DNA of 64,000 bases from Eucommia ulmoides (taxonomy: Eukaryota; Streptophyta; Magnoliopsida; Garryales; Eucommiaceae): NCBI GenBank assembly GCA_016647705.1, contig CM028326.1, positions 29,027,401-29,091,400 on the forward strand. Reading direction: 5' to 3'. The notes beneath the pieces were generated by a model that worked only from the letters and a program-made list of their open reading frames with translations, was not told where the DNA came from and did not search any database. Below are positions 3,195 to 64,000 of the stretch, piece by piece; position 1 is the stretch's first letter; the number at the start of each line of letters is the position of its first letter. Made by a program: the position numbers and the translations under genes.

Positions 3195-3230
3195 ATGTAG
3201 AGAGAGAGAGAGAGAGTGATATATATGTAA
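3195..3230 (-). promoter_or_regulatory. Candidate BOR1 core promoter: TATA stretch and CT patch
   Basis: On the minus strand a CATATATATCA stretch (about 3228-3218) is followed by a run of CT dinucleotides (about 3216-3198) and then an A/T-rich start-like region near 3190. A TATA box followed by a pyrimidine patch is a common plant core-promoter layout. The transcription start is not proven. Confidence 0.35.
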
Positions 3231-3240
3231 TGCTCAAGTT

Positions 3241-6291: not shown

Positions 6292-6319
6292 TTATAAACG
6301 TGATTTTAGATTTGGGATC

Positions 6320-6321
<2 letters not shown>

Positions 6322-6361
<40 letters not shown>
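6322..6361. repeat. (GA)n microsatellite
   Basis: About twenty uninterrupted GA dinucleotides just right of the foldback element. Confidence 0.95.
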
Positions 6362-6364
<3 letters not shown>

Positions 6365-7733
6365 TAGGCTTATAAAGATAAAAGGTTTAGGGATTTCAAA
6401 GAGATAAAAAAAACAGAGGGAAAGGACAAAGAGCCGTGCTGACTTCCAAAGTGGAAAGGTACGTATGACCTAACCTTCCTTTTTCTCTACTATTGCTTCA
6501 TTGGACCTCTTGCCCCTTACTTTTCTTCAACATATTTATCTTACTCGGCACATTTCAATGCATTCGACAAAAATATTAAATTATACTTTACACGCTAAAC
6601 TTCATCATTATCTTCACTTTTTACTTCAGGTGTAACGAAATAAAATGATAATAAAATTAAAATTAAAATTAATAAAATAAAATAATTATTATTATTGATT
6701 TTAATGTGATATTAGAATGACATTAAAAAGTAAAATAATAATTTAATTAAACTTATAAATGATATAATAATTATTTAATTAAATTTCATTACAATTCAAA
6801 TATTTGATTATTATTTTGTTTTATTTTTTGGCTGATAAATAATTAAAATCTAATTCTAAATAATTGGGATTAGTTAATACCAAATTTATCTTGGTATAGG
6901 TTAATCTCATATTTTGTGAGATTAGAGATTTTTTAGTAATGAAACTGTGATTTAATCTCATGTACCAAATATAAGAATAGAATGACTATTTTTATAGCTA
7001 TTCCAATCTCTTCTCAAATCTCGTGTACCAAACGCAACGTTACATGTTCAATTCAAACACATTTTCGGTGTTCGGGATCAAAAATTTTGAAACAAAACTC
7101 GGAAGGAAAAAAAACATTTTTATTCTGATTTAGAACTTTGGTCGAAATAATGAGAACAAAATATTAATATATTTTTTTTTTCTTTGTCTTATGAAAAAAC
7201 AAAAACAAAATATGATAATCTAATCAAATGTGACTTAAGCTCATTCTTACTGTCCATTCAAATCCAAATCTCACTTATATGTGATCGCTACCTTTTAAAA
7301 GGAGTTTAAATTCGAGATTCCCTGCATAAATATCAAATACACCACTTATATTTTTATAATATCTAAAATATTTGTTATATTTTCAATTTAGTTACCTAAA
7401 ACATCCTCTATCATATTTTATTTATCATATTTTGTTGAGAAAAATACTCTTACAACATAATATTTTTATTCTTTAATTCAAATTATATGTTTTCTCCTTG
7501 TTTTTTACTTTTTATAGTTTTATTTTTTATTATTTATTTTTATTTCTTTTGATTTATTTTTATTTTATTTTTTTATATAGCATTTCTGAAAAAAAAAAAC
7601 AAAAAAACAAAAAATCGAAAAACATGATATGAAAAAGAAAAAATGAATTAAAAAGGAAAAAGCAAAAAAAAACATATTTTTGCTTTTAAGTTAAAGTATT
7701 TTAATTTTATTTCATGGTAGAATTTTAGGATCT
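6362..7733. other. AT-rich intergenic DNA with weak inverted repeats
   Basis: No gene seen. A weak inverted pair TGTAACGAAATAAAATGATAA (about 6632) and the reverse complement of TGTAATGAAATTTAATTAAA (about 6790) may be a small decayed MITE. 7560-7690 is A-rich/T-rich low-complexity sequence. Confidence 0.5.
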
Positions 7734-8241
7734 GAAGCCTTAATGTTCATGGTAGAATTTTAGTGTTTGTGTTTTCTCTATAAAAGTTTGATTCCTTGTA
7801 GAATCGTGAAGAAAACATTAAGGTTATGTGTTTGATTTATTATTGTTAAAAACTACAAATTTGCTATGAATTTAAGGAAGGAAAAACCCCCATTTTCGGA
7901 ATTTTTTGAGTGTTTTTTCTCTGCAGAAAATAAAGAAACGACGAAGGTCGCTCGACTGACCAAACAAGTCAATCGACTGATGGTGTCATAAATTCGGAAG
8001 CCTTAATGTTCATGGAAGAATTTTAGTGTTTGTGTTTTCTCTATTCAAGTTTGATTCTTTGTAGAATTGTGGAGAAAACATTAAGGTTATGTGTTGTTTG
8101 ATTTATTATTGTTAAAAACTACAAATTTGCTATGAATTTAAGGAAGGAAAACCCCCCATTTTTGGAATTTTTTTAGTTTTTTTCGCTGCAGAAAATAAAG
8201 AAACAATGAAGGTCAGTCAACTGATGGTGTCGTAAATTCGG
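7734..8241. repeat. Tandem duplication, two units of about 263 bp
   Basis: Unit 1 starts at GAAGCCTTAATGTTCATGG (7734) and unit 2 at the same words (7997). Both run through the same landmarks: GTGTTTGTGTTTTCTCTAT, the TTGTAGAATYGTGRAGAAAA stretch, ACTACAAATTTGCTATGAA, and the CGACTGATGGTGTCATAAAT end. The copies differ by scattered substitutions and small indels, so the duplication is not very recent. Confidence 0.85.
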
Positions 8242-10559: not shown

Positions 10560-11800
10560 TCCAAGTACGCTGCATGGCGTGCAAAGAAGGGTATGCTTCT
10601 TACTCTTATTTGTTCTAAAGTTAATTTGGCTTATGTACCAAGTCACACTTGGTGGGTAGATTCTGATGCTACTACTCAAGTAAATGTCTCTATGCGGGGT
10701 TGTTTATGGAGCTGAAAGGTAAATGATACTGAAAGATTAATCCATGTGGGCGATGGCAAAACAGTTGTTGTGGAGGCAATAAGGACTTTTAGATTATCAT
10801 TAAAGACTGGTTATTTTTGGGTTTTGAAAGAGACATATGTTGTACCATCATTTAGATGGAATTTGATTTCTATTTCTACTTTGGACAAGTTTGGTTTTTC
10901 TTGTTCATTTAGAAATAATAAATTCAGTCTCTTTCAAGATTCAAATATTGTTGCAACTGGTGCTTTGATTGATAATCTATATTTATTGGATACTATTGCT
11001 TCACATAATGAAACCTTGCAAATAATTATTCGTAGTACAAAACGCAAATTAGCTATTGAGAATTCTGTCATGCTTTGGCACAAGCGTTTAGGACATATCT
11101 CTAAACAGAGAATATAGAGGTTTTTTTCTGACGAAATTCTTGATCCCCTTGATTTAACCAATTTCAAAGTTTGTACTGAATGTGTAAAGGAAAAATAGAC
11201 AAATATAAGAAAATTGGTTGTCAATAGGACTTCCAGTGTCTTAGAACTAATACATACTGATATTTGCGGACCATTTCCTAGGGCATCTTGCAATGGACAA
11301 TAGTATTTTATTACGTTTATAGACAACTACTCTCGCTATGGGTACCTCTATTTGATTCATGAGAAGTCTCAATCCTTGGATGTATTTAAGACTTTCAAAG
11401 CTGAAGTTGAAAATCAGCTAGGCAAGAAAATTAAGGCTGTTAAATCTGACTGTGGTGGTGAATACTATGGTCGATATGAAGAATCAGGAGAACAACGTCC
11501 AGAACCCTTTGCAAAATTCCTAGAGGAATGTGGAATCATCCCACAACACACCATGCTGGTCAAATCTAGCATGAACGGTGTTGCTGAGAGACGAAACATA
11601 ATGCTTAAGAACATGGTGAGAAGTATGATAAGTCATTCTTCTTTACTAAAATTACTCTGGGGAAAAGCACTTAAGACTGCAACATATCCTGAACAGGGAA
11701 CCAAGTAAAGTAGTAGCTAAAACCCCTTATGAATTGTGACTAGGAAAAAAATCCTAGCATAAGGCATTTAAACATTTGGGGTTGTCCAGCTGAGGTAAGG
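10560..11800 (+). pseudogene. Copia protease to integrase region (fossil)
   Basis: A pre-integrase block LWHKRLGHIS lies near 11072-11102. Integrase-core words are HTDICGPFP (about 11250-11277), KSDCGGEYYG (11440-11470) and NGVAERRN (about 11575-11598). The protease part before it is weakly recognisable. Broken. Confidence 0.8.
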
Positions 11801-19124: not shown

Positions 19125-20330
19125 TCCATTAATTTGTTTTTTCTTATTTTTTCCTTAGTTATTGGTAATTATTATTTGTATTCCGAGTACAAGCCCGGAT
19201 TGTATTCCGATTCCAAGACAAAAGGCATTGGATTATCTATGAATTTGGCGATACAATAACTTTGCGTTCGACATTATCGAGAATTGAGATTGTAGAGATA
19301 AGCTCAAATGGGATATGTGAAATTTTCCTTGATTCGCTCAATTCTACATTCAAAGCTTTCACCTATCCCATTTAATCATATATATATAGAGAGAGAGAGA
19401 GAAAGAGAGAGACAAAAGGCATTGGATTCTCTATAAATCTGGGCGATAAAGTAACTTTGCGTTTGACATCATCGCGAATCGAGATTGTAGAGATAAGGTT
19501 AAATTGGATAGGTGAAATTTTCCTTGATTAACTCATTTCTACATTCAAAGCTTTTCACCCATACCATTTAACCCAATGTATAAATACAAAGGGCATTGGA
19601 TTCTCCATTCATATAGCAATACACTAACTTTGCATTTGGTATTTTCGAGAATCGAGATTATGGATATAAGGACAAATGGGACATGTGAAATTTTCTTTGA
19701 TTGACTCATTTATTAATAAGGTGTAAACGAATCAAGTCGTTCATGAACTGCTCAAGCTCGGCTCGATAATAACTCGTTCGAAACTCGTTCATTTAATAAA
19801 TGAATCAAACTCAACCTTTTAGTTAAGCTCGTTTATTAAATAAACAATATCATATGTTCAAGTTCGGCTCGTTAATGTTCATGAACAATTCGAATAATAT
19901 AAAATTAAAATATTTTATTATATATTTAGTACAAAAAAATCGTAAACTAGATTCTTAAATTTCTTTAATAATATAATCTTACATATCTAATCATTTTAGA
20001 GGTTAATCCAATTAAATTTTATTTTTATAAATATTCATTTAACCTATTTAATTACTATAACATATTGAATTTTTTTTAAAAAAAAAATTCATATTCTTTA
20101 TAATTCATATTTTTTGTTTCACTCGTAAATTAAATATTTAAATTTTGTATACAGATTTTACGAAATAATTATAAATAACTAATTTTATAAAAAAATATCT
20201 ATTATTTATATCGTTATTAAGCATTAAAATTCATTTAATATATGTTTAAAAAAAAAAATGAAATAGCTCGTGAACAGTTCAATTATTAAATGAATAAAAT
20301 TTGAACATAAGATTTCAGTAAAAAATAAGC
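19125..20330. repeat. Duplicated block, copy I: three 175-195 bp units plus a GGCTCG-rich element
   Basis: Units start at about 19217, 19411 and 19585 with GACAAAAGGCATTGGATT and hold ACTTTGCGTTTGACATYATC, AGATTGTAGAGATAAG and GGTGAAATTTTCCTTGATT. They are followed by an AT-rich segment starting GTGTAAACGAATCAAGTCG with words GCTCAAGCTCGGCTCG. The whole arrangement recurs at 32580-33930. An AT/GA microsatellite separates units 1 and 2. Confidence 0.8.
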
Positions 20331-26400: not shown

Positions 26401-29158
26401 TTCACCTCTGTCATTTATATCAAAAGTAAAGGACAATCACTTTTTAGTGGAGATAATCATCCATATATCATTTCCTGCCAATAAATGTCCTCTACATATA
26501 GGGTAAAGATAATAAAACCCTTCTCCAACTACTTTATATAAACACAATGATCTTTCTTAATCATGATAAAACTAAAAGTAATTATGGCTTGATGGAATTT
26601 GAGGTATCATTGTTTAAATAATTGTTTTAGGCCATAAATGGAATGTTTTAACTTGCACACTTTGTGCTCTTGTCCCTTGGACACAAAACCAATAGGTTGA
26701 TCCATGTAGATCTCCTAATCTAGTTATCCATTTAGAAAAATAGTCTTAACATCCATTTGAAAAAGTTATTGACCCAAATAGGCAACAATGGCTAGGATTA
26801 GGCGAATGGAGGCAAATCTAACAATAGGTGAAAAAGTTTTCTCGTAGTCTACACCCTTTTTTTGAGTGTAACCTTTCACTACAAGACTAGCTTTGTACTT
26901 ATCAATAGATCCATCTACTTGACGTTTAATCTTTAAAACCCATTTGTTTCCAATAGATTTTCATCCAAGCTGAAGATCAACTAGTTCCCATACTTGATTG
27001 TTTTGCTTAGAACTAATCTCATCTTCTATTGTAGTTATCCATTCTTTAGCAGCAGGCGAAGATAAGGCCTCTTGATAAGAGGAAGGCTTGTCTTCCTCTA
27101 GTGAAGAACACATGAAAAATTCCTCATTAATTCCAAATAGATGTTGAGGAATATTTCTACGTTGACTTCTACGTAGCTGAAGAGTTTGAGAATTATTTTG
27201 TGGTACACTTCCACTATCCCCATACTGACTTGGAAGGATATAGGTGGATGTCAATAAAGCATCTCCCCAAAAATTGATTGGGAGATTAAAGTGTGCCATA
27301 ATTAACCTGAACATATCCAATAAAGTTTGATTCCTACGCTCAGCTACTTCATTTTGTTGTAGAATATCAGGAATTGTCAACTGTCTAATTATGCCTCTAT
27401 TATCACATAAGTCCTTGAATTGTTCAGACAAATACTCACATCCTCGGTCAGTACGTAAAATCTTAAGATTTTTACCTCTTTGATTCTCAACTAAATGAAC
27501 AAATCTTTGGAAGTAATCCAATGCTTCTGATTTGTGAGAAACGAGATAAACATAACCAAAACGTAAGTAATCATCAATGAATATGATAAAATAATTAGCA
27601 CTATGTCATGCCCTAACATTTATAGGTCCGCAAATGTCAGAATGGACTAACTCTAAGGAAGATGTAGCCTTTATAGCTTTACTAAAAGGTTTTGTTGTGG
27701 CATTTCCAACCAAACAAGATTCACAAACATGTAAGCTAACTCTAGATAGTGGACCTAAAAGTCCTTCTCGAGCTTACCTTGTTATTCTGTCTTGCCCAAT
27801 ATGACCAAGTCTTGCATGCCATGTAACAAATGTAGATTTAATAGAATCATTATTACTAGAAGTTAAATATGTATCAAAATTTAAAGAATAATCAACATCT
27901 AGTACATAAAATATTATCTACTATGTGTCCACTACCATAAAACATGGAGTCTAAATAAAATTGAACATAGTCTATAATGAAACTGAAAGAAAAAACCTAG
28001 TCCGACCATGGCTACAATAGACATCAAGTTTCGTCAAACTCTAGGAGCACAGAGAACATCATAGAGAAGCACGATGTGTCCAGAACGCATCTTTAATTAA
28101 TAGGTTCTAATTCATATCACATATTTTCTAGTGTTATTCCCCATGTAAATATGTTGACTCTCAATTGGAATTCTGCGATACTCAATGAACCCTACTTAAT
28201 CTTTTGCGAAGTGTCTTGTTGCTCTAGTATTTACAATCCAATCAGGATATGAATGAGCAACCAAGACATGACTACACATATAGGCATCATTTAGAAAGAT
28301 AGAATTGGTTTGTACCTTCTTCAACTCAGTGCATTCACGAGCGAAGTGACCAAATTTATCAAAGTTGTAACACTTCAACTTAGACTTGTCCTTCTTTTCT
28401 CCACTCTTTCCTTTTTGATAGTTTCTACCCTTTCTCTTTTTATAATTAGATCCTCATATTCCTCATTGTCGTGCTTTGTCCTGCCACTTTCGCTTGGACC
28501 CAAATGTCTGGCGATAGCTAGACTCAGCGACAAACGTAGAAGTATTACCTCGTGCCTCCAACCTCTCTGCCTCCAATTCCAAATGACATCGTAATTGGGT
28601 AAAAATTTGGATATTCTTATGGTGCGTCATTATGAGCTTCACTTGCTCCCAAGAATCAAGCAAAGACCAAAACACAACAAGGATCTATTGCTCATCAAAT
28701 AAGTTGTTACCAGCTGCCATTAGGCCGCGTGTCACAGCCGATATTTTTCGAAGATGCTCAACCATCTTTGTTTTGGGAAACATCTTATAAGTTTTAAACT
28801 TAAGTGTCAAGGCTCGCAACCTAGTTGCTGATGTACCGACAAATGCCAACTTCAAGGTATTCCACATATCTAGTGCAGTGACATAACCTTCATAATCACC
28901 AATCCGATCATCATGCATATAGCTTAACATAGTGAATCTTGCACTACGATCTTTCTTGGCCCAATTTTGATAGATTTTCATCTCACGCCGGTGTTAGGTA
29001 GAATTACCTTTGGGAGGTGATTACATGCTATGTGTTAGTGTTTCCAGAACTTCTCGCTCATTTAGGAGATACTGGATCTTACGATGCCAAATATTATAGT
29101 TAGTCCTATCCAGTTTCTCAACTTTAGCAAGATCCGCTACTATATTCGTTAAAGTCAT
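23454..29158 (-). mobile_element. Ty1/copia fossil B, with gag, integrase, RT and RNase H, split by a solo LTR
   Basis: Minus-strand parts: gag 29158-28190 (starts MTLTNIVADLAKVEKLDRTN; includes CYNFDKFGHFAREC), integrase about 28150-27000 (RTDRGCEYLSEQFKDLC, NEVAERRNQTLLDM), RT about 26950-26132, then a 1.36-kb solo LTR, then RNase H 24757-24128 (HIQTRYHYIRDRVSLGEVV), and 3' LTR about 24127-23454. The 5' LTR was not recognised; 29160-29340 looks like untranslated leader. Many breaks across gag and pol. It is the more complete relative of copia A. Confidence 0.85.
24764..26126 (+). mobile_element. Solo LTR of the palindrome-bearing Athila-like family, inside copia B
   Basis: The segment starts TGATTGGTGAAATTTATC and ends ATATTTCGCTACCA (TG..CA). 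It is flanked by CATAG on both sides (24759-24763 and 26127-26131), exactly between RT and RNase H sequence of copia B. Its right end, read in reverse, matches the left end of the insert at 45467 almost word for word (TCGCTACTTTCACTGCAAG). No internal region is present. Six CCGCTGCAGCGG-type palindromes lie at about 24938-25107. Confidence 0.85.
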
Positions 29159-29676: not shown

Positions 29677-29812
29677 TCGCTATATAAAGGATTAAATCTA
29701 TATCTATATCTATCTATATATATTATATATAAAAGTGGAAGCCGTCGCTATATAAAGGATTAAATCTATATCTATATCTATCTATATATATTATATATAA
29801 AAGTGGAAGCCG
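29677..29812. repeat. Perfect 68-bp tandem duplication at a Helitron 5' end
   Basis: 29677-29744 and 29745-29812 are identical base for base, from TCGCTATATAAAGG to GTGGAAGCCG. Each copy contains a candidate Helitron 5' terminus, TCTATATATATTATATATAA. Confidence 0.95.
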
Positions 29813-32686: not shown

Positions 32687-32723
<37 letters not shown>

Positions 32724-34078
32724 ACAAAAGGCATTGGATTGTTTATGAATTTGGTAATACAGTAACTTCGCGTTCGACATTATTGAGAATTGAGATTGTA
32801 GAGATAAACTCAAATGGGATAGGTGAAATTTTCCTTGATCTGCTCATTTTTACATTTAAAGCTTTCACCTATCCAATTTAACCCAATACGCACACACACA
32901 CACATATATATATACATACACATACATACATAAAGACAAAGGGCATTGGATTCTCTGTAAATCTAGGTGATAAATAACTTTGCGTTTGACATCATCAAGA
33001 ATCGAGATTGTAGAGATAAGGTTAAATTGGATAGGTGAAATTTTCCTTGATTTGCTCATTTCTACATTCAAAGCTTTTCACCTATACCATTTAACCCAAT
33101 GTATAAATACAATGGGCATTGGATTCTCTATAAATATGGCGATACACTAACTTTGCATTTGGTATTATCGAGAATCGAGATTATAGATATAAGTATAAAT
33201 GGGATATGTGAAATTTTCTTTGATTCACTCATTTATACATAGGGTTGTGCACGAACCACGCCGTTTATGAACTACTCAAGCTTGGCTCGATAATAACTCG
33301 TTTGAAACTCGTTCATTTAATAAATGAATCAAGCTCAAGCTTTTAATTAGGCTCGTTTATTAAACAAACAAATATCATATGTTCAAGTTCGGCTCGTTAA
33401 TGTTCATGAACAATTCGAATAATATAAAATTAAAACATTTTATTATATATTTAGTACAAAAAAATCGTAAAATAGATTCTTAAATTTCTATAATAATATA
33501 ATCTTATATATCTAATCATTTTAGAGGTTAATTCAATTAAATTTTATTTTTATAAATATCCATTTAACTTATTTAATTACTATAACATATTGATTTTTTT
33601 TTTTTTTAAAAATTACATAGTCTTTCTAATTCATATATTTTGTTTCACTCGTAAATTAAATATTTAAATTTTGTATACAGATTTTTACAAAATAATTATA
33701 AATAACTACTTTCATTAAAAAATATATATTAGTTATATCGTTATTAAGCATTAAAATTCATTTAATATATGTTTAAAAAAACAAAAAAAAATTGAAAAAG
33801 CTCCCGAACAGTTCAATTATTAAACGAACCAAACTTGATCATAAGATTTCAGCTCAGCTTGAACTAAAATAGTATAAAAAATAAATGAACTAAAATTGAA
33901 TACTTAATAATCGGCTCGACTCATTTACAATCCCAATTCTACATTCCAATCTTTAACCTACCCCATTTAACCTTATCTTCATTTAACTTTATCTCTATAA
34001 CCGCCATTTTCAATAATGCAAGCGCAAAGTTACTGTATCGTCGAGGTTCACCAAAAATCCAATACCCTTTCCCTTTAT
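32580..34078. repeat. Duplicated block, copy II, with an additional inverted unit
   Basis: Units start near 32723, 32935 and 33109, as in copy I, followed by the same GGCTCG-rich segment (33240-33920). In addition 33950-34078 holds a further unit in reverse orientation (read on the minus strand: GGGTATTGGATTTTTGGTGA, GATACAGTAACTTTGCGC, GTTATAGAGATAAAG). The block therefore has inverted arms around the GGCTCG segment. It stops just before the gypsy element at 34085. (TA)n and (CA)n runs lie at 32690-32720 and 32889-32905. Confidence 0.8.
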
Positions 34079-37700: not shown

Positions 37701-40082
37701 TTTTATCATCGGGTGATGGCCCAGATGAACGCAAAACTTAACATATAAACAACAACACAAAAATATAAACACATGCTAACCTAAACACACATGCAATAAG
37801 GAAAAACAATAACACATAAACTAACATTACTAAATACTACACATCACTTCTGAACTCAAAATGGACAGTGTCCTCAGCGATCCCAATCATCAATCTCAAC
37901 ATATAGAATTAAAATATGCTGACGAAGGGTGTTTAGAGCACTTACCTGGGAGGTGAGAGGAACTCGCCTCCAAATCAAGTCGGATGGGATGGATCAAAAA
38001 GAATTCCTTGGGTTGCCTCCCAAGAAGTGCGTTTAATGTCCTCGGCCTAACATTTTCAGAACGCCCTCAAGATTGGTGAGGTTTTTCTTTGGATGGCTCA
38101 ATCTTTCAACGAAACACCTTATCGGCTTATGTGCTTAGCCAAGCACAATAAATGGCTTGGAATTCCATCAAAAATGATGCATCAATACCCATCGATCTAA
38201 CATCGCCAATTACCCTGCATTAGAAACAAAAACAAAACTATAAACAAAAATTATATACAAAATAAATGCCAAAAATAAAATTAGGTCACTTTCACACAAT
38301 ATTGACAATGAACGACATCGCCAATCCCGGCAATACGAAACACTTGCTTCTCCAATCTAAAACTTAAGTCCGGAGCCGTTACCACATTTTTTCGACAATA
38401 ACATCAAAACAATCCCCTGTAACGGCGTCAAAAACTTGGTAGCGCACGGAAGTGACACGCCGCTACTTACGCTCGCAAGTATACGAGGTCTAAATTTTAG
38501 TATAGTGTGATCATTAAGATCGGGTTATCGTATCCACAGGGATTGTTGTCGTTACTATCGAATATCGCGTTTGTCGTGACCTAATTTTATCTAGGCGAAA
38601 AAATGTATTTAATTAATTAAACTAATACTAATATATCCTAAATTAACTACACTATTATGTTAATATGTTTTAGGGTGAAGAATTGCATAGGGATTAACGT
38701 GTTTACAAATACGTGTTCAATTTTGATTTTCTCACGTTTACGTTCTTCGACCTATTTGACAACCGCGGTACGTAAACTCCACCGCCACCTCTTCTAAGTG
38801 TAAGACGGGAGAATACATGACTTCGAGTCAACGAAGAAGTCCCCCTGAACATCTTAACGACCCTAGATCACGTGAGTCTAGCCCAGCGTCATTGACTGCA
38901 CACAATCCAACTCCTTCCCGGGTTATTGGATCGTTGCGTTGTATTTACCCTATCGGCAATCTCCGTTCTAAAACTCCCTCGCCACCTCTTCCGAGTGTAA
39001 GACGGGGGATATAACGCAACTTCGAGTCAACGAAGAGGTCCCCCTCAACGTCTTAACAACCCTAGGTAGCGTGTGTCTAGCCCCACGTCATCGATTGTTC
39101 ACAATTCAAACCCCGACCGGGTTATAAAATCGTGGCGTTTGTTTACTCTAATTCGAATCCGGGGTTTGTCAAAACCCCGTATTCTCCATTTATCAATCCA
39201 AGCATAATAAACAAACAATACGATAAATACAATCAAACTACGAAGAACAATCACAAATGAAACACCGAAATCATCCAAACAACATATTTATAAATTATAT
39301 GTTAATCCCTACTACAATCCATATTTAACTCGTGGCCATAGCCGCATATACAAGAAAATGACGAGCTAAATGTGCTCACATGCTCCTAAGATAAAGAAAT
39401 AAGGAAAAACGATCGAAGAACTTAGCCTCGTCCGAAGATAAACCGCTAAGAACGCTCAACAATCGATTCGCCATCTTCTCCACTTCGGGATGTGAGCTCC
39501 ACCACTGAAATTCCTAACCCTTGGATTAAATATAGCCTAAGGGGCTCAAAAATGAAAGAGAGGTAAGAGAGATCCCGGCCAAGGAGGAGGAGAAAGGATA
39601 TTTATACCAAAAATATCCTAAAAATATCTAAAGGTTGTACAGGACAAATCCACCTAGGCGGTGGAAATTGCACCTAGGCGGAGTTAGGTCGGTTAAGTCT
39701 GATCGCCTAGACGGTGAAGTAGGCGGTGGACTGGGAGAACATTCTGTTGGATTTTTGCCTAGGCGGTAGAATTTCCACCTAGGCAAGCGGCTGTTAGTAA
39801 CATTTTGCTCTTCTTTGTATCTTCACCGCTTAAGCGGTAGTCTGGACGCTTAAGCGGTGGCCTGTTTCATCTTTTAGCCTCCGAGCTTGTTTATCCACCG
39901 TAACTTCAAACCGCTTTGGTTCGATCTCATCGTTTTAGCTCCAGTTTTCTATCTTTTTACCCGACACACCTGATTTATACAAAAAGTATGAAAACTAATT
40001 AAAACATAATAAAATACTATATAAATATATTCGAAAACTAACAAATTCGGATTAGAAATAGATAGGTTTTTCACACCTATCA
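34741..40082 (-). mobile_element. Non-autonomous Athila-like LTR element 1, structurally whole but non-coding
   Basis: LTRs 34741-36423 and 38437-40082, ends TGGTAGCG and CACCTATCA, target duplication GTAGT on both sides (34736-34740 and 40083-40087). It lies on the minus strand. Next to the right-hand LTR, reading the minus strand, is TGACGCCGTTACAGGGGATT (38430-38411), a slightly altered form of the primer site complementary to tRNA-Asp used by Athila-type elements. Next to the left-hand LTR is the purine tract GGGTTTGGGGGAAT. The 2.0-kb interior has no gag or pol. In the first 165 bp of the LTRs I count 8 differences, all transitions. Youngest insert here. Confidence 0.85.
36424..38436 (-). 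other. Non-coding interior of element 1
   Basis: No frame with a recognisable domain. The interior is homologous to 45720-47300 and 53425-55100 in the other inserts (shared landmarks: TGGCTAGTCCTCGAGCC, GTGTTCTAGAATTTCGACA, CATTATGTAGGTT-like and GACAGGGTAACGAGGGATAA words). CTTGGGTTGCCTCCCAAG (38007-38024) is a partly palindromic word shared with element 3. Confidence 0.6.
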
Positions 40083-40262: not shown

Positions 40263-41845
40263 ATGAATACAAGGTCTGGTCACTCTCAACGATCAAGAAA
40301 CAAAAATACCTTGGTGAATAGACAGCCCGGGAAATATATGTCGCGGTATCCAAGACCAAAAACCCGGGTTGCGGCACGCAAGGCGGTCAATGGAGAAGAT
40401 ACAAAGATCAAGAGACGAAATACCAATATTGAGGGACAATCCCGTTAACCAAATCCAGCCACGGGAACCTACTCGGGCCAATCGTACAGGACAATTGATG
40501 CCACTCGGCTTGACGACATGGAACGTCAGCGCGGTAAGTTCCAGGAGTAGTTCGACATCCTCATCTCTCGCCTGCCTCTAGCCCCGGTTGAAAGGGGACC
40601 GGACTTCCACATCGTAGGGGAGATGGTCCGTCTGCAAGATCCCGATGATAGAGTGCCCACCTGTTATGGACATATAGCATAGGTTAGGCCTCAGGCCGCC
40701 AACCGGGCACAAAAGAAGAGGGACCTCAACCTCCCTGTTGCCTTAGGATTACCACCAGTCGAGGAGTACAATTACTAGGATCGCTCCGAGCATCAATCTT
40801 ACCAAATTCGGGAGGTAGACTCCCACTCCCCGCTACTAGCTTTTAGGGGGAAAGCCAGGCCTACGGCCAATCAGGTCGTATCCCCGACAAGAGTGGCGAC
40901 TGCCATGGAGCGATGCATGGCCGAGATAGAGGCCGTCCTCAGTCAGATGCGCAACACCGGAGGAATAGTCGGGCTGCATACTGGGGTCAGGTCCCCTTTC
41001 ATCGCGGAGATCACAAATAAACCAGTTCTATATCGATTTTCTTATCCACCAGCAGCCCAGTACGATAGGACGACTGATCCCCTAGATCACCTTTCGATTT
41101 ATGTCTCGCATATGGATGTACATTCTGCCTCTAACATGATAAGGTACAAGTTCTTCTCCCTTGGGCTGACCGATCTTGCTAGGACGTGGTTCAACGACCT
41201 CCCACCGACCTCAATCTTCACTTTTGTCCAGCTTGAACAATAGTTCCTGGAGAAGTTTAGCCGATCACAGCGAAGACCTAAAACTATCACTCATTTTCTC
41301 GCCGTCAGGCAGGAAGAGAACGAGAATTTGGCCGACTATGTACACAGGTTTTGGATGGAATCTCTTGCCTATGAAGGGGTGTTTGATAATGTGCCGCTCA
41401 ACGTCTTCATTCACGGGTTGAGCCACCGAATGCTCACCTACGACCTAAATTCCAAGCTAGCAACTAGCCTGCGTGAAGCCCTGGACCTCGGTGCCAATTA
41501 CTACATAGTCGATCTCATCATAAAAAAGAAGAGAGAGGATCTCCTCATGAAGAAAGACCAGCCCGACGAAGGGATGAGCCGATCTCAAGCTCCAGAAGGC
41601 TCCAAGCGGAAGGACTGTTGGGACCTCTGCCCAATGACAGGAGGCCGCCCCTTGGCCCCTGACATCTTGGCTTCGCTCTCCTAACCACGTCTGTCGCCAC
41701 AATCTTCGCTGAGAATGCTGGGAAGAGAATCTTCCTGCTAACCCCTCCCCTAAAAGGGAAGTCCCTGGGAAGGTCGGCTGATAAGTATTGCGACTTCCAC
41801 AGGAGTCGCAGTCATGCTACAAACGAATGCTTTCAGTTAAAGAAA
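40263..41845 (+). pseudogene. Gypsy gag region (fossil)
   Basis: Starts MNTRSGHSQRSRNKN. The capsid-like core includes APYD-type sequence AAQYDRTTDPLDHLSIYVSH, RTWFNDLPPTSIFTF and NLADYVHRFWMESLAYEGV (about 41050-41390). A zinc-finger-like YCDFHRSRSHATNECFQLK lies near 41787-41845. Typical of Tat gag. Broken in several places. Confidence 0.85.
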
Positions 41846-42199
41846 AAAATAGAGGCCCTCATCCGATGAGGTTACCTCAGCAATTACGTCCACCGAGCAG
41901 ATGAAGATCAGACCAGTGGCAATGACAGCTGAGATGAGCACCTTAGACAACGTAGAAGAATGAACGATAACCGGGCTCCACCCTGTGTCGAGTGTGCCGG
42001 TAATGATTTTGACCTGAGGTTTGATAGTGAGATTAACGTCATACATGGGGGCATTGGCCTTGGTTGTGAGACGTCCTCCTCCTGGAAGAGGTAAGAAAGT
42101 AAAGGGCAAAAAGAAGGTCGATCAGGGTGTTTATGAGGTTAGCACGATAGATGCTGCCTCGCATAATGTTATCTTCTTCAGCAAAACTGGCCTAAAAAT

Positions 42200-42660
42200 G
42201 TGAACTTCCGAACGATGACGCCCTGGTCATCTCAGCCCTGATCAATCATTTCAATATGATGAGGATACTTATAGATGGAGGCATCTCAACAGATATCATC
42301 TTTAAATGGGCCTTCGATAAAATGGGCATGGACTCCGGCGTTGTGCAGCCCGTAAGGTCTCTCCTCGTCGGTTTTGGGAAAGACGTGGTTAGCTCGATCA
42401 GTTGGGTCTTTCTGCCCGTCACAATCTGTTCCAGGCCCAAGATTTCCACCGTCTGGTCTAAATTCCTTATAATAGATAGGTTATCACCCTACAACGCGAT
42501 AATAGGTGAACCCACTGTGGCCACCCAGAAGGTCGTTTGTTTCCAGTATCGCCAAAAAATGAAGTTCCCAATAGGCTCCAGGGTGGGAGAAGTCCTAGGA
42601 GACCTAGAAGTCACCCGGGCCTGTGCAAGAAGGGCTATGGAGAAAAAATAGCAATTACAG
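42200..42660 (+). pseudogene. Gypsy protease region (fossil)
   Basis: The frame around MRILIDGGISTDIIFKWAFD (42256-42315) holds the aspartic-protease-like DGG site, and SPYNAIIGEPTVATQKVVC (about 42487-42543) matches the usual downstream block of Tat proteases. Broken upstream and downstream. Confidence 0.7.
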
Positions 42661-42899
42661 TTGGGGCCCAAGCTAAATGTCACTTGCCAAGCTCCCGAAG
42701 AGCCTGTGGTCCTAGGTCCTAATCGGGGACTGTGAGCCCATCATGATCAATGTCTCTATTTACCCAGGTATAGCCGAAAAGATGATGAGGGGTGGGGCTC
42801 AGCTCGGCCCATAGGAGCGATTCGACCTCATCGAGCTATTGAGGATGAACTATGATGTTTTTGCCTAGTCGTATAACGAACTTTCTGGGATTGATCCCA

Positions 42900-44180
42900 G
42901 TATCACCATACACCAGCTGTATGCTGATGTGCACCACTCACCTATTCACCAAAATAGAAAGAAGTTCCACCCATGCCGACAGAAGATAATTGAAGAAAAA
43001 ATAGATGAGCTCGTTAGATTGGACGTCGTAGATGAGATCAAATTTCCAAACTGGCTCGCCAATGTCGTGTTGGCCCCAAAGGCCAACAACAAATGAAGAC
43101 TTTGCATCGAATTTAAAGACCAAAACAAGGCCTACCCAAAAGATTTATTTTCCCTCTCGACGATCGACATCGTGATTGACGCCACAGCGGGGCATGAGCG
43201 GCTCAACTTCCACAATGCTTACGCCGGTTACAACCAGATTTCCATGTTTTTCCTAGATAAAAGCAAGACCTCGTTCATCACCGACAGGGGCACCTATTGC
43301 TATAAGGTCATGCCTTTTGGCATCCGCAACGCAAGGGCGAAGTATTAGAGGTTGGTCAACAAAATGTTTAAAGAAGAAATCAGGAACACGATAGAAGTAT
43401 ATATCGACGATATGCTCATGAAAAGTAGCCGATCTAAATACCACCTCGGCCATATCCAAGCCTGCTTTAAAAAGCTCTGGGCTCACCGCATGAAACTGAA
43501 CCCAAACAAGTGCATTTTTGGCGTGTCCACTAGCAAATTCCTAGGCTTCATGGTCTCCCAACGAGGCATTGATACAAATCCTAACCAGATCAGTGCGGTG
43601 CTTGGAATCGCTTCTGCTCAGAATAAGAAGGAGGTGCAGATGCTGACAGGTCGGTTGGCCTCCCTAAATCGGTTCATCTCCAGGTCGTCTGAAAAATGCC
43701 TCCCGTTTTGCAAAATCCTTCGGGGGAACAAGGCATTCGAATGGACCAAGGAGTGTAACCGCGCCTTTGAAGAACTAAAAAAATATCTCTCGTTGGCTCC
43801 TCTGCTCGCCACTCCTCAGAAAGGAGAAGATCTGCTCTTGTACATTGCGGCCTCCTCCACAGCTGTCAGTGCCGCCTTGGTCAGAGATAATACCGGCGTG
43901 TAGAGCTCGGTTTATTATTCAAATCGTGTCCTAACTGATGCCGAGATGAGATATACGAGGTTCAAAAAATTAGCCTATACCCTACTGATCGCCTCGAGGA
44001 AGTTTTGACAATATTTTGAGGCTCATACCATAGTGGTATTGACCAACCAGCCATTAAGGCAAATTCTCCACTCCCCTGATGTCTCAGGGAGGTTAATGAA
44101 GTACATCCTAGAACTAGGCCAATTCTATATCGAGCATCGCCCTAGGACGATGATAAAGGGATAAGTCCTGGCTGATTTCA
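42900..44180 (+). pseudogene. Gypsy reverse transcriptase and RNase H (fossil)
   Basis: RT words run in the usual order: RQKIIEEKIDELVRLDVVDE, AYPKDLFSLSTIDI-like, KVMPFGIRNA and the YIDDMLMKSS catalytic box (43399-43428), then LNPNKCIFGV. The connection and RNase H follow with EVQMLTGRLASLNRFISRS and LLATPQKGEDLLLYIAAS. Broken, but a 183-codon stretch (43352-43903) is still open. Confidence 0.9.
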
Positions 44181-51787: not shown

Positions 51788-54700
51788 TGTACGACGAGCG
51801 TTTGTTACACGCTCACATATTGACTACTCGCAAGTGTACGGGGTCAAAGTTTTAGTATGATGGATCTTTTAAGATCGGGTATCGTATCCACAGGGATTGG
51901 TTGTCGTTACTATCGAGTACTGTGTTTGTTATGACCTAATTTTATCTAACCTAAAAAAAATGTAAAAAAATTATTTTAAACTAAATTAATTAACTAAATT
52001 ATCTATACTAATATAATGAGATGTTTTAGGGGAAAGAATTGTCTAGGGATTAACTTGGTTTACAAATACATGTTTGATCTCATTTGACTTACGTTTACGG
52101 TGTTCGACCTATTTGACAATCTTAGTTTGTAAACTCTCCCACCACCTCTCTCGAGTGTAAGATGAGGGAATACGCGACTTCTTGTCAACGAAGAAGTCCC
52201 CCTCAATATTTTAATGAACCTAGGTCACATGAGTCTCGCCCCAATGTCATTGATTGCACACAATCCAACTCTCTCTCAGGTTATTGGATCGTCGCGTTAT
52301 GTTTACCCTATCGACAATCTCAGTCGTAAACTCCCCCGCCACCTCTCCCGAGTGTAAGACGAGGGAATACATAACTTTGTGTCAATGAATAAGTCATTTT
52401 CAACATCTTAATGACCCTAGGTCACGTGAGTCTTTCCCCAACATCATCGATTGCCCACAATCCAACTCTCTCTTGGGTTATTGGATCGTCGCGTTGTTTA
52501 CCCTAGTCTGAATCTGGGGTTACCTCTTCTGAGTGTCAGACCCCAAATTCTTGATATATCAATCTAAGCATAATAAATAAATAATATGGAAAACACAATC
52601 AAACTTCAAAGAACAATCATAAACGAAACACCGAAATTATACGAATCACATATTTATAAATATATTGTTAATCTCTATACAATCCATGTTTAACTAATTG
52701 CCATAACCGTATTTACAATAAAGCACGAGCTAAACATGCTCACAAATTCCTAAGTTAAAGAAATAAAGGAAGAAATCGAAAAACTTAGCCTAGTCCGAAG
52801 ATTTATCGCTAAAAATCGTTCAACGATCACTTAGCCGTCTTCTTCTCCTTCGGGATGTGAGATCTCCCTCTAAAACTTATCTACCCAACCCTAAGTATAG
52901 CCCAAGGGTGGTAGCATGCAAGAGAGGCCGAAACATTAGAGAAGAAAGGGGATTATATAGGCTAAATATCTCAAAAATACCCTAAAAAATATCTACACTA
53001 TGCAGAGGTCACCGCCGCAGCGGTGAGTAGGTCGGTTGGCTGATCGCCTCAGTGGTGAAGATAGTGGTGGAATTGGTGACCATCTTGCATTTTCACTACC
53101 GTGGCGCTGGATCTCACAGCTGCGGCAGTGGACTTTCAACAAGAATAGGTGCACTCTGCATTTTTACCGCCTAGGCGGTGGTCTGGACGCCTAGGCGGTG
53201 GGTTGTTATTTTGATTATTGCCTCCGTGCTTTGTTTTTCCACCGTTCTTCGACCGTTTTTGGTTCGATCTAATCGTTTACGCTCCGTTTTTCTACATTTT
53301 TACCCCCCACACCTGATTTATACAAAAAGAATAAAAACTAATTAAAACATAATAAAATACTATAAAAATGCTTGAAAACTAACTTAGTTCGGCTCGCAAA
53401 TATATAGGTAGATCACACCTATCAAATACCGCCAAACTTGGAATTTTACTAGTACTTGAGCAAAATACTCACACGAAAATGAAAAACACAACAAAATAAA
53501 ATAGCAAACAACCTAAAAACAATCTAAACATAACGACATGGGAGTTTTACATTCTTCTAATGACCAAGTTATGTTTTCCTTAACAACTGCCAGTCATATC
53601 AAGTTCAGGCGGTAAAACACATCATGTGGTGTTCTAGAATTTTGACATTCAATAATGGTGAACACTATTCTAGATCCTATAAACGTGTTTATACGAGACT
53701 CAATAATATAGCTATGCAATGACCGGATTAAATTATCCACCAACTAAACTCATGACTTAGATCGTATAGGACTAGGATTTCCATATGCATGATTGGGGTC
53801 CACTCTCCACTAATGTAGGTTGAGTAGTTCATAGAAATTAGAAGGACTTGGTTCGGTTATGGAATATTTAGCCAAGGGTATTTTAGAATAGAAAACGGGT
53901 TAACGTTACCCATGGCTCAACACTTGGTGCATTTACTCTCGAACCCCCATAGATAAATTGGAAAACAATTCTAAACTAACATTTAAGAATGTAGTACTTG
54001 TCAAAAAGAAATGTATTTTTTTTTTAACTTACCACACCCCCAAACTTAGTCAATTATTATGATTTCATGGGTGTGGTTAAAGCGAAAGAAAAATGACAAG
54101 TGAGTACTCGAATACCAAACCAATCTGAAATTCGCCCTAAACCTAACCGCTCACATCAAGAAGTATTTGCAACTGCTAACTTGATTCACTCAAATGTGCC
54201 TTTAATTTAGCGATATAGGTTTGGAAAAAAATTAACTGGTCAGGGTATTTGTTCTTGTGTTTAGAATTGAAAAAAAAAAAAAAATTAGACTTCGACAGGG
54301 TAACGAGGGATAATCATGTTACAAGGTAGGCTTAAAAAGGCTCAAGTGACAAAACGAATGCCTAAATCACATCTCTTGAACTACCTTGCCTAGGATTTCG
54401 CCTCAAGCTTTCCCTCAATCAGGTTCTAGAATCTTTAAATTGTCATGAGTTTGGCTAATTGATAATCGTCCTCAAATCAATTGAATAACTATACATTGAG
54501 TCTATGTGATTATGCAAATTAGGATCTACAATAATTTTCGCCAAAAAGTATTTTCAAGCACACAGAACACACATGCATGAGTATTACCCTTGACCTCAAA
54601 AACAAACAGGGGGTAATATCATCATCGGGTAACGGCCCAAATGAACACAAAACTCAGCATGCAATAACAACACAAACAAACACAAACTATCCTAAACAAA

Positions 54701-57700
54701 CATGCACACAAGAAAACAATAAAACATTTAACATACTATACTACACATCACTTCTGAACTTAAAACGAATAGTGTTCTCAGCGGCCCAATCATCATTCTC
54801 AAAATATGAAATTAAATTATGCTGATGAAGGGGGTTTAGAACACATACTTGGGAGGTGAGAGAATCTCGCCTTCGAATCAAGTCGAATGAGATGGATTTA
54901 ATTTATTTTTTACTGTGGGTTGCCTCCCAAGAAGCGCATGGTTTAATGTCCTCGGCCTGACACGAAGAATGGCTCATCAAAGAGCGACTTCCGCTGGTAG
55001 TACGTGTCAAATAACACAACATACGGGTCTTAGTTCAGTACGCCCTCAAACTTGGCGAGATGTTTCTTTGGATGGATCGAGCTTTCAACAACATACCTCA
55101 CCGGCTCATGTACTTGGTGGGCATGAAAGGTCGTTGCTAACGGCGATGAGGAACAAGTGAACCACATTAGATCCTCGTAGATATGATCGTCTTGGATCGA
55201 CTATGGCGTCACGAGCTGGAATCGAATGGTGAAAATTCACAAGGATCAATATGTGAATTTTCATCGCCGAACCACACTTGGGTCTCCTTTTCATTCGAAT
55301 CTTCAACATATTCTCCCAAGAGCTCCCGCTCGTCTCTGGTTCCTCACGGTGGCTTTCGCTGAATGTAGCATTAGTATATCTTAGTGCCACCGCTTATGTC
55401 TCGACCTCAATGAAGCAAAAATGATGATCGATTTACTTCTGCAAAAATGTTACGGTCTCATCAATGTCAGCACAGACCGCCTCGATATGATCAAGATGAT
55501 CCTCATGCTCGTTGATCCGGTCATGCATCTTCCTCAACAATCTCTAAGTCTCCCCCATAACGGTTGCGAGCTTTTCTTCCAGATTGGGGGAAGACTTCTC
55601 ATCGTGATTCGGAATGTCTAGCCATGGTGCCGTGGTATTGGAAAAATCCCTCGAGCATTGGTGAATGATTCCAACTCGGATAATCATAGGCCGTCATTTC
55701 TTCTAACAACCAAAAGGCATCTTCCACTATTAGGTTGTAGAAAGATGGGGTACCATTTCCTCATTCCACCTATATTCTGGTTGCGACTTGTAACCCGTCG
55801 AGGAAATTCAGAAGCTGACATTCCCTTAGGAAATCATGGTTCGAAAATAGGAACAACGGTTCCTTATATCAATCCCAAGCACTATAAAATGGCTCGAAAT
55901 TCCGTTGAAAGAATTGCATCAATACCTATTCATCTAACATCGTCGAGTACCCTACAAGAGAAAACAAAAACAAAAATAAAAACTACAAAGAAAAAATTAT
56001 AAACATAAAAAATGCCTAAAGTAAAATTGGATCATTTACTCACAATATCAATAATAATAATAATAATAAAAAACATAATCCCCGGCAACGGCGCTAAACA
56101 CTTGGTGGCGATTGCCGGAAACTGAATATTCTCAACCAATCTTCGGCAACGACGCCAAAAACTTGTACAACGAGTGTTTGTTACACGCTCGCATATTGAC
56201 TACTCGTAAGTGTACGAGGTCAAAATTTTAGTATGATGGATCTTTTAAGATCGGGTATCGTATCCACAAGGATTAGTTGTCGTTACTATCGAGTATCATG
56301 TTTGTCATGACCTAATTTTATCTAGGCTAAAAAGAATGTAAAAAAATTATATTAAACTAAACTAATTAACTAAATTATCTATACTAATATAATAATATGT
56401 TTTAGGGGAAAGAATTGTCTAGGGATTAACTTGGTTTACAAATACGTGTTCGATCTCGTTTGACTTACATATACGGCGTTTGACCTATTTGACAATCTCA
56501 ATTCGTAAACTCCCCCACCACCTTTCCCAAGTGTAAAACGAAGGAATACGTGACTTCGTGTTGATGAAGAAGTCTTCCTCAACATCTTAACGACCCTAGG
56601 TCACATGAGTCTTCCCCCAACGTCATTGATTGCACACAATGCAACTCCCTCCCGGGTTATTGGATCGTCACGTTGTGATTACTCTATCGACAATCTCAGT
56701 TTGTAAACTCCCCCGCCACCTCTCCCGAGTGTAAGACGAGAGAATAAATGACTTCGTGTCAACGAAGAAGTCCCCTTTAATGTCTTAATGACCCTAGGTC
56801 ACGTGAGTCTTGCCCCAACGACATCAATTACTCACAATCCAACTCCCTCTTGGGTTATTGGATCGTCGCGTTATTTACACTAGTCTGAATCCGGGATTAC
56901 CTCTTCCAAGTGTCAAACCTCAAATTCTCGATATATCAATCTAAGCATAATAAATAAATAATATGGCAAACACAATCAAATTTCGAAGAACAATCATAAA
57001 CGAAACATTGAAATCATACGAATCACATATTTGTAAATATATTGTTAATCCCTATACAATCCATGTTTAACTAACATTCATAATCATATTTACAATAAAG
57101 CACGAACTAAACATGCTCACAAATTCCTAAGTTAAAGAAATAAATGAAAAAATCGAAGAACTTAGCCTAGTCCAAAGATTTATCGCTAAGAACTGTTCAA
57201 CGATTGTTTCGTCGCATTCTTCTCCTTCGGGATATGAGCTCTCCCTCTGAAACTCCTCTACCCAACCCTAAGTATAGCCTAAGGGTGGTAGCATGCAAGA
57301 GAGGCCGAAAAATGAGAGAGGAGATGGGATTATATAGGCTAAATATCTCAAAAATATCCTAAAAAATATCTAAACTGTGCAGAGGTCACCGCCGCGGCGG
57401 TGAGTAGGTCAGTTGGCTGATCGCCTCGGCGGTGAAGACAGCGATAGACTTGGTGACCATCCTGCATTTTCACCGCCGCGGTAGTGGACTTTCAAGAAGA
57501 ATAGGTGCACTCTGTATTTTCACCACCTAGGCGGTGGTCTGAATGCCGAGGCAGTGGGCTGTTGTTTTGATTATTGCCTCCATACTTTGTTTTTCCATCG
57601 TTCTTCGACCGTTTTTGGTTCGATCTGATCATTTACGCTCCATTTTCTTACCTTTTCACCCCCCACACACTTGATTTATACAAAAATAATAAAAACTAAT

Positions 57701-62529: not shown

Positions 62530-63390
62530 AAAGTATCACCAAATTAAAAATGTCTGCCTTGATGTGGGATGTTTTGAACTAATTAAATCACTAGTTGTTT
62601 TCTTTCTTTTTAATTATATTTTGTTGGCACATAGTACTATCATGTCTAGATTATTAAATGGCGTGTGTCGGTTTATTAGCCATTTTTCTGTTCTTCGTCA
62701 ACATCAGTCTACATCTAACTTAATGAAAGCAAACTGAAATTTAAAGTGGCATATTTTCAAATACTAAATGAAGGTTAAGGTCGAAAATAACCTTAGAAAG
62801 AATGATTCTTCAAAATTGTTTTTCTATTGAAAAAATCCAAGCCGAATGTGTATGACACAATATAATATACTATGGGTAAATTTGTTTTTCCGAATATTTA
62901 ACTTTTACTTACAATAATTATTTATTCAAAATAACAACAATCATTAATTTTTTTTTTAATAATTGTTCTTTTTATTAAAGGGTAATCGGTGATATTTGTA
63001 ATATGTTATTAGTTTCATTTAAAATATAAGTTGTAATATGTTATCAGCCCTTTAATATATTAGTTTCAGCTTAAGTATTAATCTCGCATAATCTCACTTA
63101 CGTATAATATTAGTTACATGTACCTCTATAATATTAGTTACAAATAACGTGTAATTATATTACATATACTTGCTTAATATTTATTACATTTAACAAATAT
63201 TTTACATAAAAATTAGATATATAATTGTGAGAGTGTAACATGTGTATTGGATCTTTCATTTTTTTTTTTTAATGCACGACTAAAATATAACATGTGTATT
63301 CCAAAAAAGAGTTGTTTACATAAAAATTAATATTTTGTTACTTATTTTCTGAAAAATGAGTAACTCCATCTTTTTTACGAAACAATTATA
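62530..63390. other. AT-rich DNA sharing pieces with 14.4 and 20.3 kb
   Basis: 62530-62590 matches 14444-14500. GCCATTTTTCTGTTCTTCGTC and the 100 bp after it (62676-62768) match 20325-20424. The rest is AT-rich with repeated ATATTAGTTACA words (63060-63200). No gene seen. Confidence 0.55.
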
Positions 63391-63414
63391 ACTCAGGGTT
63401 GGTATCCTCGCAAA

Positions 63415-63681
63415 ACCCAGGGTTATGAACCCTGGGTATAACTCAAAAAATATTTCGTATGCCCGGGTTTGACAACCCCGGGTATACTGTCCTGTTACTA
63501 TTTTATTTTTTATTTTTTATTGCTAGACCCGAGGTTGCCAACCTCGGGTTTGGCTTGATTTTTCCATTAAACTCGGGGTTGACGACCCCGGGTTTATTAA
63601 AAAAAATTAATTAAAACCCGGGGTTGTAAACCCCGGGTTTAGACAAAAATTTTGTGAAACCCAAGGTTTTCAACCCCGAGT
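63415..63681. repeat. Array of six 23-nt hairpins
   Basis: Units start at 63415, 63461, 63527, 63571, 63616 and 63659. Each is a 10-nt arm, a 3-nt loop and a 10-nt arm of the form ACCCRRGGTT-NNN-AACCYYGGGT. Units 1, 3 and 5 are perfectly complementary although their arms differ from each other (ACCCAGGGTT, ACCCGAGGTT, ACCCGGGGTT); units 2, 4 and 6 have one to three mismatches or a bulge. Spacing is 43-46 nt except one of 66. A poorer unit may stand at 63391-63413. Spacers are AT-rich. Confidence 0.9.
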
Positions 63682-63683
63682 TT

Positions 63684-64000
63684 CCCCTCTCAAAGTACTC
63701 TCGCTCACTTCTCTCTCCTTCTTCTTCTCCTCTCTCTTCTTCTCCTCATTTTCTTCCTTTTCTTCTCTCTTTTCTTCTCCGCCATTTTCTCTCTCCTCTC
63801 TTTTTCTCCTCCATTTCTCTACTCTTTACATTAAAAAAATAAAAATAAATTATCAGTATTTTAATTTATAATTTTATAGATAATTCTAAAAATTAATATA
63901 TTTATTATATGTATCATTGTTTTAAAAATATTTTTAAAGTATAAATTTTTTAATATTTAATTGTGATAAGTATTTAATTTATAATTATAAAGAGGAAAAA
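63684..64000. other. Pyrimidine-rich tract, then AT-rich sequence
   Basis: 63684-63825 is nearly pure C/T (CTTCTTCTCC-type words), directly after the hairpin array; the rest is AT-rich. Frames through it are low-complexity Ser/Leu/Pro. Confidence 0.7.

Follow-up and report, generated by a model that had tools for sequence, protein, structure and literature searches.

A palindrome array near the edge of the window

Toward the right edge of a 64,000-nt stretch of Eucommia ulmoides DNA, analysed as a whole and referred to here as the window, a series of short inverted repeats with changing arms raises the question of what kind of element carries such an array and whether pairing between the arms is maintained. 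Searching the window with a 10-3-10 pattern (10-nt arms around a 3-nt loop) and allowing up to 3 mismatches gave six matches within 63415-63681, compared with none in 100 shuffles. This bears out an earlier reading of the letters alone (the sequence-only reading), which had reported six inverted repeats of 23 nt, and the measured start-to-start spacings of 46, 66, 44, 45 and 43 nt agree with its description of near-regular spacing of 43-46 nt with one of 66. The palindromes, to which no strand is assigned, are ACCCAGGGTT ATG AACCCTGGGT (63415-63437, paired 10/10), GCCCGGGTTT GAC AACCCCGGGT (63461-63483, 8/10), ACCCGAGGTT GCC AACCTCGGGT (63527-63549, 10/10), ACTCGGGGTT GAC GACCCCGGGT (63571-63593, 8/10), ACCCGGGGTT GTA AACCCCGGGT (63616-63638, 10/10) and ACCCAAGGTT TTC AACCCCGAGT (63659-63681, 7/10). 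All six units counted earlier are thus present, but a seventh and decayed one, ACTCAGGGTT GGT ATCCTCGCAA at 63391-63413 (likewise without strand), had been missed. This seventh unit represents slot 1 of the array, starts at +82 from the left end of the element described below, and corresponds to a consensus of ACTCGGGGTT GGT AACCCCGAGT among relatives, in which the first unit sits at the same +82 place.

The sequence-only reading also held that every arm change is matched on the other side in three units. Three units do pair 10/10, but only two of them carry changes, namely A-T at arm position 5 (unit at 63415) and A-T at arm position 6 (unit at 63527), while the arms of the third (63616) are the family consensus. 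Its statement that the loops are unrelated does not hold, because loops recur across copies, with slot 1 keeping GGT, slot 3 keeping GAC and slot 2 more loosely ACG or ATG. Folded as single-stranded DNA, 63391-63690 was far stabler than shuffles (z of −9.8). Adjoining the array, the C/T-rich tract that had been pointed out before is found at 63684-63823 on the forward strand, and its best 60 nt are 98% pyrimidine. A pyrimidine tract also comes directly after the array in L023, at 93%, and the one in L016, at 97%, lies about 660 nt further along; the best pyrimidine content in L044, of which only a short stretch was covered, was 67%. Its 5’-leader-like appearance suggests that the tract may act as a leader.

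The array belongs to a family of Mutator-like elements

The genome searched (946.7 Mb in 391 contigs) includes the window. The exact pattern proposed by the sequence-only reading occurred at 652 places, whereas the reversed control gave none, indicating that the array is not a one-off. Many of the places listed on the first contig were paired at distances of about 1.3-1.8 kb, and the loci there contain transposable elements. Elements of about 2 kb begin with GAGTTGTTTAC or a near-identical sequence and close with its complement, and their inverted repeats could be aligned over 723-948 bp in 10 of 12 cases and over 593 and 612 bp in the other two. Palindrome units are present at both element ends, with unit number and spacing differing between copies. 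Both ends could be placed for 14 elements, one of them the window copy. The 10-bp flanks of seven match at 10/10 positions, those of two at 9/10, those of two more at 8/10, and those of three at fewer (7 in L010b, 6 in L008 and 6 in L024, with L008 matching 8/8 at 8 bp), and a target duplication of 10 bp with 8-10 matching bases therefore accompanies 11 of the 14. In this count the right boundary of L010a was set one base further out, with the changed last base counted as element, and L011 and L019 were left out, the flanks of the latter being reverse complements rather than a duplication.

L019 itself contains, at 3568-3997, a small element consisting of one inverted repeat whose symmetry extends into both flanks (gggtcacttatt / aataagtgaccc); it shows no ordinary target duplication because of this flank symmetry, and it is possibly an inverted dimer. 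At about 185-240 nt from the end, L008, L011 and L014 also contain pairs of units with a distance of 33 nt, and the paired units are near reverse complements of each other (with loops such as TGG and CCA), resulting in a larger palindrome.

The position of the array relative to the element end is recurrent. Window positions 63309-63700 used as a query matched at least 58 stretches of the genome (40 of 179 candidates scored), and by manual count at least 31 of those 58, the window included, start at query base 1, corresponding to 63309. The terminal motif followed 70-72 nt on by a pattern-perfect unit was found at 82 genome places, compared with 0 for the reversed control. In the window, the decayed Mutator-like element (MULE) starts with GAGTTGTTTAC at 63309 and closes with GTAAACAACTC, ending at position 5025 of L005 (about 67524 in window numbering). 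Its left part thus occupies 63309-64000 on the forward strand, and the whole element of 4216 bp runs beyond the window. The left copy of the target site duplication, ttccaaaaaa (63299-63308, 10 bp, no strand), and the right copy, ttccaggaaa (about 67525-67534, outside the window), are identical at 8 of 10 bp, and the chance of 8 or more matches is 0.0019. The terminal inverted repeats are about 70% identical over 134 bp, and remnants of three units with loops GGT, ACC and GAC are left at the right end. Between the left end and slot 1 lies a terminal segment of 82 bp (63309-63390, forward strand), which can be aligned between MULE lineages with different palindromes. No transposase was found in this copy, the only frame of at least 90 aa in L005 810-5025 being one of 101 aa (judged by eye), and the copy is either non-autonomous or too decayed to code.

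The family combines target duplications of 8-11 bp, long terminal inverted repeats and, in its coding members, a transposase. Identification of the array as a MULE terminal array is accordingly close to certain, which answers in kind the earlier remark that no named plant element shows this pattern. A CACTA (EnSpm) element was ruled out, as the termini are GAGTTGTTTAC with a 10-bp duplication rather than CACTA ends with a 3-bp duplication. A host gene promoter alone was rejected because of the transposon ends that bound the array, and a tandem minisatellite or a one-off foldback because of the 652 genome matches together with the fixed position.

Coding relatives carry a plant mobile domain

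A profile match above cut-off to the MULE transposase domain (PF10551) was obtained in L023, a copy with an array of the window's type (hereafter the ACCC class), and the plant mobile domain (PMD, PF10536) was detected in both coding copies of this class (L025 and L026). These two copies are colinear with about 80% DNA identity, the transposase part of the second having been matched through DNA colinearity alone. Their right ends were not found within the stretches examined, and the location of the PMD inside these elements is therefore deduced from the colinearity and from L061. The latter was chosen for an ACCC-type unit about 3 kb from a PMD match and contains, at 857-8054 (G000:C8:23707056-23714253), a near-intact MULE with open reading frames for DBD_Tnp_Mut, MULE, SWIM and PMD, inverted ends of GAGTTCTTAACC and identical 10-bp flanks (ttaattttta). 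The PMD is thus colinear with the transposase in all three (L025, L026 and L061). Both ends of the L061 element carry arrays of AAACGCA palindromes, unlike the ACCC units, and the ACCC-type unit in L061 belongs to a second element starting at L061 9043. In the whole genome at least 143 PMD stretches were found (117 of 2460 candidates scored). Nine PMD matches are clustered at G000:C4:2507473-2604771, seven of them without stops and six of these spanning the whole profile; this cluster likely represents tandem PMD genes. The PMD and MULE content is in itself suggestive of a flowering-plant host.

Arm pairing is not maintained within individual copies

Counting compensated against uncompensated arm changes had been put forward as the way to see whether the pairing is kept. 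We sampled 21 left ends of the window's subfamily (the window and L041-L060), of which L047, L056 and L060 were left out for want of a placed end. For the other 18 copies, units were assigned, according to how far they lie from the end, to slots 1, 2, 3 or a later pool (18, 17, 18 and 39 units), whose consensuses pair at 10, 9, 10 and 10 of 10 positions, respectively. The results showed that pairs in which both sides depart from the slot consensus numbered 5, 9, 10 and 12, compared with 4.00, 9.88, 8.11 and 13.87 expected under independence, giving sums of 36 and 35.9. A pooled test on 131 of 140 units had appeared to indicate compensation, with 25 both-sided changes against 16.0 expected and 21 complementary changes, a number reached by 8 of 5000 shuffles. 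However, 10 of those 21 fell at arm position 9, where the variant GGGGAT...ATCCCC occurs mostly in slot 1, and removing this position left 15 against 13.9, which undid the pooled test as evidence of compensation.

Exact patterns counted over the whole genome largely point in the same direction. The consensus occurred 370 times. A T at arm position 4 was confined to one arm in 148 units and shared by both in 27, an A at arm position 5 was confined to one arm in 109 and shared by both in 21, and 31 units had one of each, such that about 85% of the units with a position-4-only or position-5-only change carry it on a single arm. CpG-type changes were counted at positions 5 and 4, where the pooled 131-unit test had shown the most changes: both-arm doubles amounted to 48 against 22.8 expected (2.1-fold) and mixed doubles to 31 against 21.8 (1.4-fold), the contrast between the two having a binomial P of 0.055 with shared descent ignored. 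Repeated loops suggest that many of the both-arm units share descent. Given that both-sided changes show no excess and most changes affect one arm, dead copies decay freely, with a small lineage effect at most. Judged from these counts, the symmetry looks like a property of lineages and not of upkeep in each copy.

Symmetry is shared by slots and lineages with different arms

Slot 1 is set apart from the other slots by matched changes, with ACTCGGGGTT/AACCCCGAGT in the window's subfamily and forms of ACCCGGGGAT/ATCCCCGGGT in several of the 2-kb elements. One-sided variants are shared as well, ATCCCCGGGT or ATCCCTGGGT standing opposite ACCCGGGGTT in L009, L032 and L035. To these we added eight PMD copies, taken from two-part PMD matches and chosen without knowledge of their ends. 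Palindromes behind an element end were found in seven of the eight, as at both L061 ends, and no palindrome array was found in the eighth (L064). They fall into two further classes. The TCCC class (L063, L065 and L066) has arms of TCCCGGGGTT, and several of its units are extended outward by matched GG/CC or CA/TG, with slot 1 pairing at only 7/12 positions in all three copies. The AAACGCA class (L062, L067, L068, L069 and both L061 ends) has 23-nt units of AAACGCA N9 TGCGTTT with varying loop lengths. A unit begins at +82 in four of its six ends (L061 left, L062, L068 and L069) and was not matched there in the other two examined (L061 right and L067). The 82-bp terminal segments of the ACCC and AAACGCA classes align without gaps and are identical at 21-24 of 38 positions over +44 to +82, a likeness that none of 20000 shuffles reached in the one pair tested, and the unit behind this segment is identical at 9-10 of 23 positions between the classes.

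Covariation between arms was also seen in these classes. Extended by one base on either side, the AAACGCA pattern matched 1884 genome places (reversed control, 5). The first 50 of these all lie on contig C1. Among them, pairing at arm positions 8 and 9, which are free in the pattern, is seen in 33 and 36 units, compared with 16.5 and 24.4 in shuffles, and 0 of 5000 shuffles reach either value; position 10 of the same 50 showed no covariation (23 against 21.3). Collapsing to 29 distinct units weakened the covariation, with 104, 286 and 2760 of 5000 shuffles reaching the values for positions 8, 9 and 10, respectively. In the examined TCCC arrays, pairing exceeded shuffles (15 of 5000, and 136 of 5000 for distinct units) with 14 of 15 units used, the unit at +183 in L063 being left out as out of register. 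The examined AAACGCA arrays gave 65 of 5000, and 551 of 5000 for distinct units, with the outer 7 bp fixed by the search pattern.

The motif class tracks the PMD lineage in the ten sampled copies. In a tree of ten PMD pieces, the five AAACGCA copies are set apart, with 100/100 support, from the five of the ACCC and TCCC classes; the tree is midpoint-rooted with a rough bootstrap and includes two decayed long-branch rows among the ten. L026, of the ACCC class, shares about 71% identity in its PMD-region DNA with the three TCCC copies, and 63-64% with the AAACGCA copies, in line with the CCCGGGG core common to the ACCC and TCCC classes. As far as searched, the retention of palindrome geometry while the arms are replaced at a conserved slot is new, no report of it having been found in the literature searched. 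Of the two earlier proposals, that pairing is kept or that palindromes are remade by copying, maintained pairing fails inside individual copies, but pairing does hold for slots and lineages, and the sequence-only interpretation as a whole is partly supported.

A model of symmetric sites for an element-encoded protein

In structural terms, the array makes up the subterminal repeats of a Mutator-like DNA transposon, and the family to which this transposon belongs has colinear MULE transposase and PMD. As for its function, we propose, with a probability of about 0.55 and judging from sequence comparison, that the palindromes act as operators, offering symmetric binding sites to a protein encoded by the element and changing together with it. 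Each palindrome would be a two-fold symmetric site bound by the protein as a dimer, with the transposase (through its MuDR-type DNA-binding domain or SWIM region) or the PMD part as candidate binders. Such sites may serve to bring the ends into synapsis, to drive transposase transcription and/or to counter silencing in the way VANC proteins act on VANDAL arrays. In active lineages symmetry would be kept because both half-sites must fit the same protein, and a joint change of protein and site would alter both arms. After insertion each copy would decay neutrally, resulting in the mixture of paired and broken units seen in the window copy.

We reasoned that the same symmetry could come from pairing itself being selected, with real hairpins formed in single-stranded DNA or in RNA, for example from a leader processed to small RNAs. 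The very stable predicted fold, the retention of complementarity while arms differ between lineages, and the covariation of positions 8 and 9 in the first 50 AAACGCA matches are in favor of this. However, both-sided changes show no excess within slots of the window's subfamily, some 85% of the single-position changes counted above affect one arm, and loop lengths vary in the AAACGCA class. Moreover, such short repeats in double-stranded DNA seldom extrude. We therefore regard selected hairpins as unlikely. The symmetry might alternatively stem from mutation and not selection, with template switching or palindrome-driven conversion copying one arm to the other and unit duplication spreading the result. 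Matched changes at apparently free positions in ACCC-class variants of slot 1 (positions 3 and 9), matched outer pairs in the TCCC class, position 8 of the AAACGCA class and the surplus of both-arm CpG-type doubles (although its contrast with mixed doubles reached only P = 0.055) could all be explained in this way. By contrast, no homogenising is seen within slots of dead copies, the repeated loops suggest shared descent of many both-arm units, and copying leaves the +82 position and the link to protein lineage unexplained, making this source of symmetry an improbable one as well. Nevertheless, matched changes at weakly constrained positions, such as position 8 of the AAACGCA class, fit copying or a hairpin constraint better than dimer sites, which do not explain them and thus leave room for either process.

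An array serving only as a promoter or enhancer region for host transcription factors, with no element-encoded binder, would account for the leader-like pyrimidine tract, which directly follows the array in L023 as in the window copy and lies about 660 nt beyond it in L016. Both transposase sites and promoters have been reported in MULE terminal repeats (PMC3310237 and the available part of PMC6446971). Opposing this, units are present at both element ends and also in the elements of about 2 kb, most of whose length is inverted repeat, and lineage-specific arms within one host genome arise more easily via an element protein than via a host factor; we consider host factors alone to be rather improbable. 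Finally, a neutral minisatellite present by chance in a transposon end is consistent with the variable unit number and spacing between copies, but can hardly be reconciled with the +82 start, the occurrence at both ends, slot consensuses that are symmetric with one pair broken of 40, and the different 23-nt palindrome that relatives carry in this position, and is very improbable.

Relation to known systems

CACTA elements carry subterminal sites for TnpA in both orientations, a likeness to the present array, but their CACTA ends and 3-bp duplications were not found here. The comparisons that follow draw on the accessible portions of the papers cited. Plant MULEs with terminal inverted repeats share with this family the MULE transposase domain, long inverted repeats, duplications of 8-11 bp and a PMD (PMC6446971), and differ from it in the arrays of 23-bp palindromes of lineage-specific sequence found here in the terminal repeats; many copies here also have longer repeats than the 14-500 bp surveyed there (PMC6446971). 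PMD-C fusions with MULE transposases occur in several grasses and in Amborella, and capture of the PMD by MULEs has been reported with a suggested use in anti-silencing (PMC5418596). The same domain is common to the silencing proteins MAIN and MAIL1 and to transposons, with its function still to be determined as of 2017 (PMC5418596). Muta1 and other Aedes MULEs resemble the present elements in long terminal repeats, short subterminal repeats and non-autonomous copies sharing ends, and 10 of 12 long-repeat Aedes families have short subterminal tandem repeats (PMC5225508). However, those are 12-bp tandem repeats with spacers of 3-4 bp, whereas here 23-bp inverted repeats are found mostly about 27-85 nt apart, start to start (PMC5225508). 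MuTAnT and foldback MULEs are similarly non-autonomous and nearly one large inverted repeat, but no array of small palindromes is described for them in the available part of PMC4486113.

VANDAL elements are plant transposons with dense arrays of short noncoding motifs, the sequence of which changes with their own protein, as proposed here. The VANC proteins of VANDAL bind these arrays, with loss of DNA methylation (PMC5735166). The nine-base VANC21 motifs stand in one orientation (PMC5735166), in contrast to the inverted repeats of this family, and by inspection no same-orientation array of YAGTATTAY was seen here, the units being inverted repeats of ACCCGGGGTT or AAACGCA. The string “palindrom” is absent from the text of PMC5735166, and a term search did not find it in PMC9168764 or PMC3310237. 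No plant MULE with arrays of small palindromes appeared in the titles and abstract beginnings among the matches listed, and no matching paper title linked the letters ACCCGGGGTT with a transposon. A link to the Arabidopsis DOWN motif was rejected, since this motif (CATGCAGTTT), tied to Arabidopsis PMD proteins in the accessible part of PMC9899485, is unlike the arms found here.

Combining these comparisons, we tentatively suggest, at somewhat less than even odds, that the PMD-bearing MULEs of this genome run operator arrays built of palindromes. Their geometry (23 bp, two-fold symmetry, first site at +82) would be inherited, while the arms would be entirely replaced at homologous slots, together with the transposase/PMD protein. 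This would be an inverted-repeat counterpart of the VANC motifs, with lineages insulated from each other. If so, specificity could be read directly from the terminal repeats, and the family would represent a clear case of site symmetry outliving site sequence. Should a PMD-bearing transposase target the palindromes, the genome would offer several natural protein-site pairs with matched changes, through which the DNA specificity of PMD proteins would be directly testable.

Other features of the window

The window contains further repeats. Doubled units of about 197-199 bp with similar sequence lie at 38774-39150, 52115-52505 and 56491-56872, doubled units of about 195-212 bp with the common string AAAGGCATTGGATT lie at 19216-19571 and 32692-33100, and a 68-bp unit is perfectly duplicated in tandem at 29677-29812. 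Retrotransposon remnants were detected at 11304-11708, 26961-27605 and 41244-43903, with matches in the window to integrase core (two, of which one is above the curated cut-off and the other below), gag (also below it), reverse transcriptase and RNase H.
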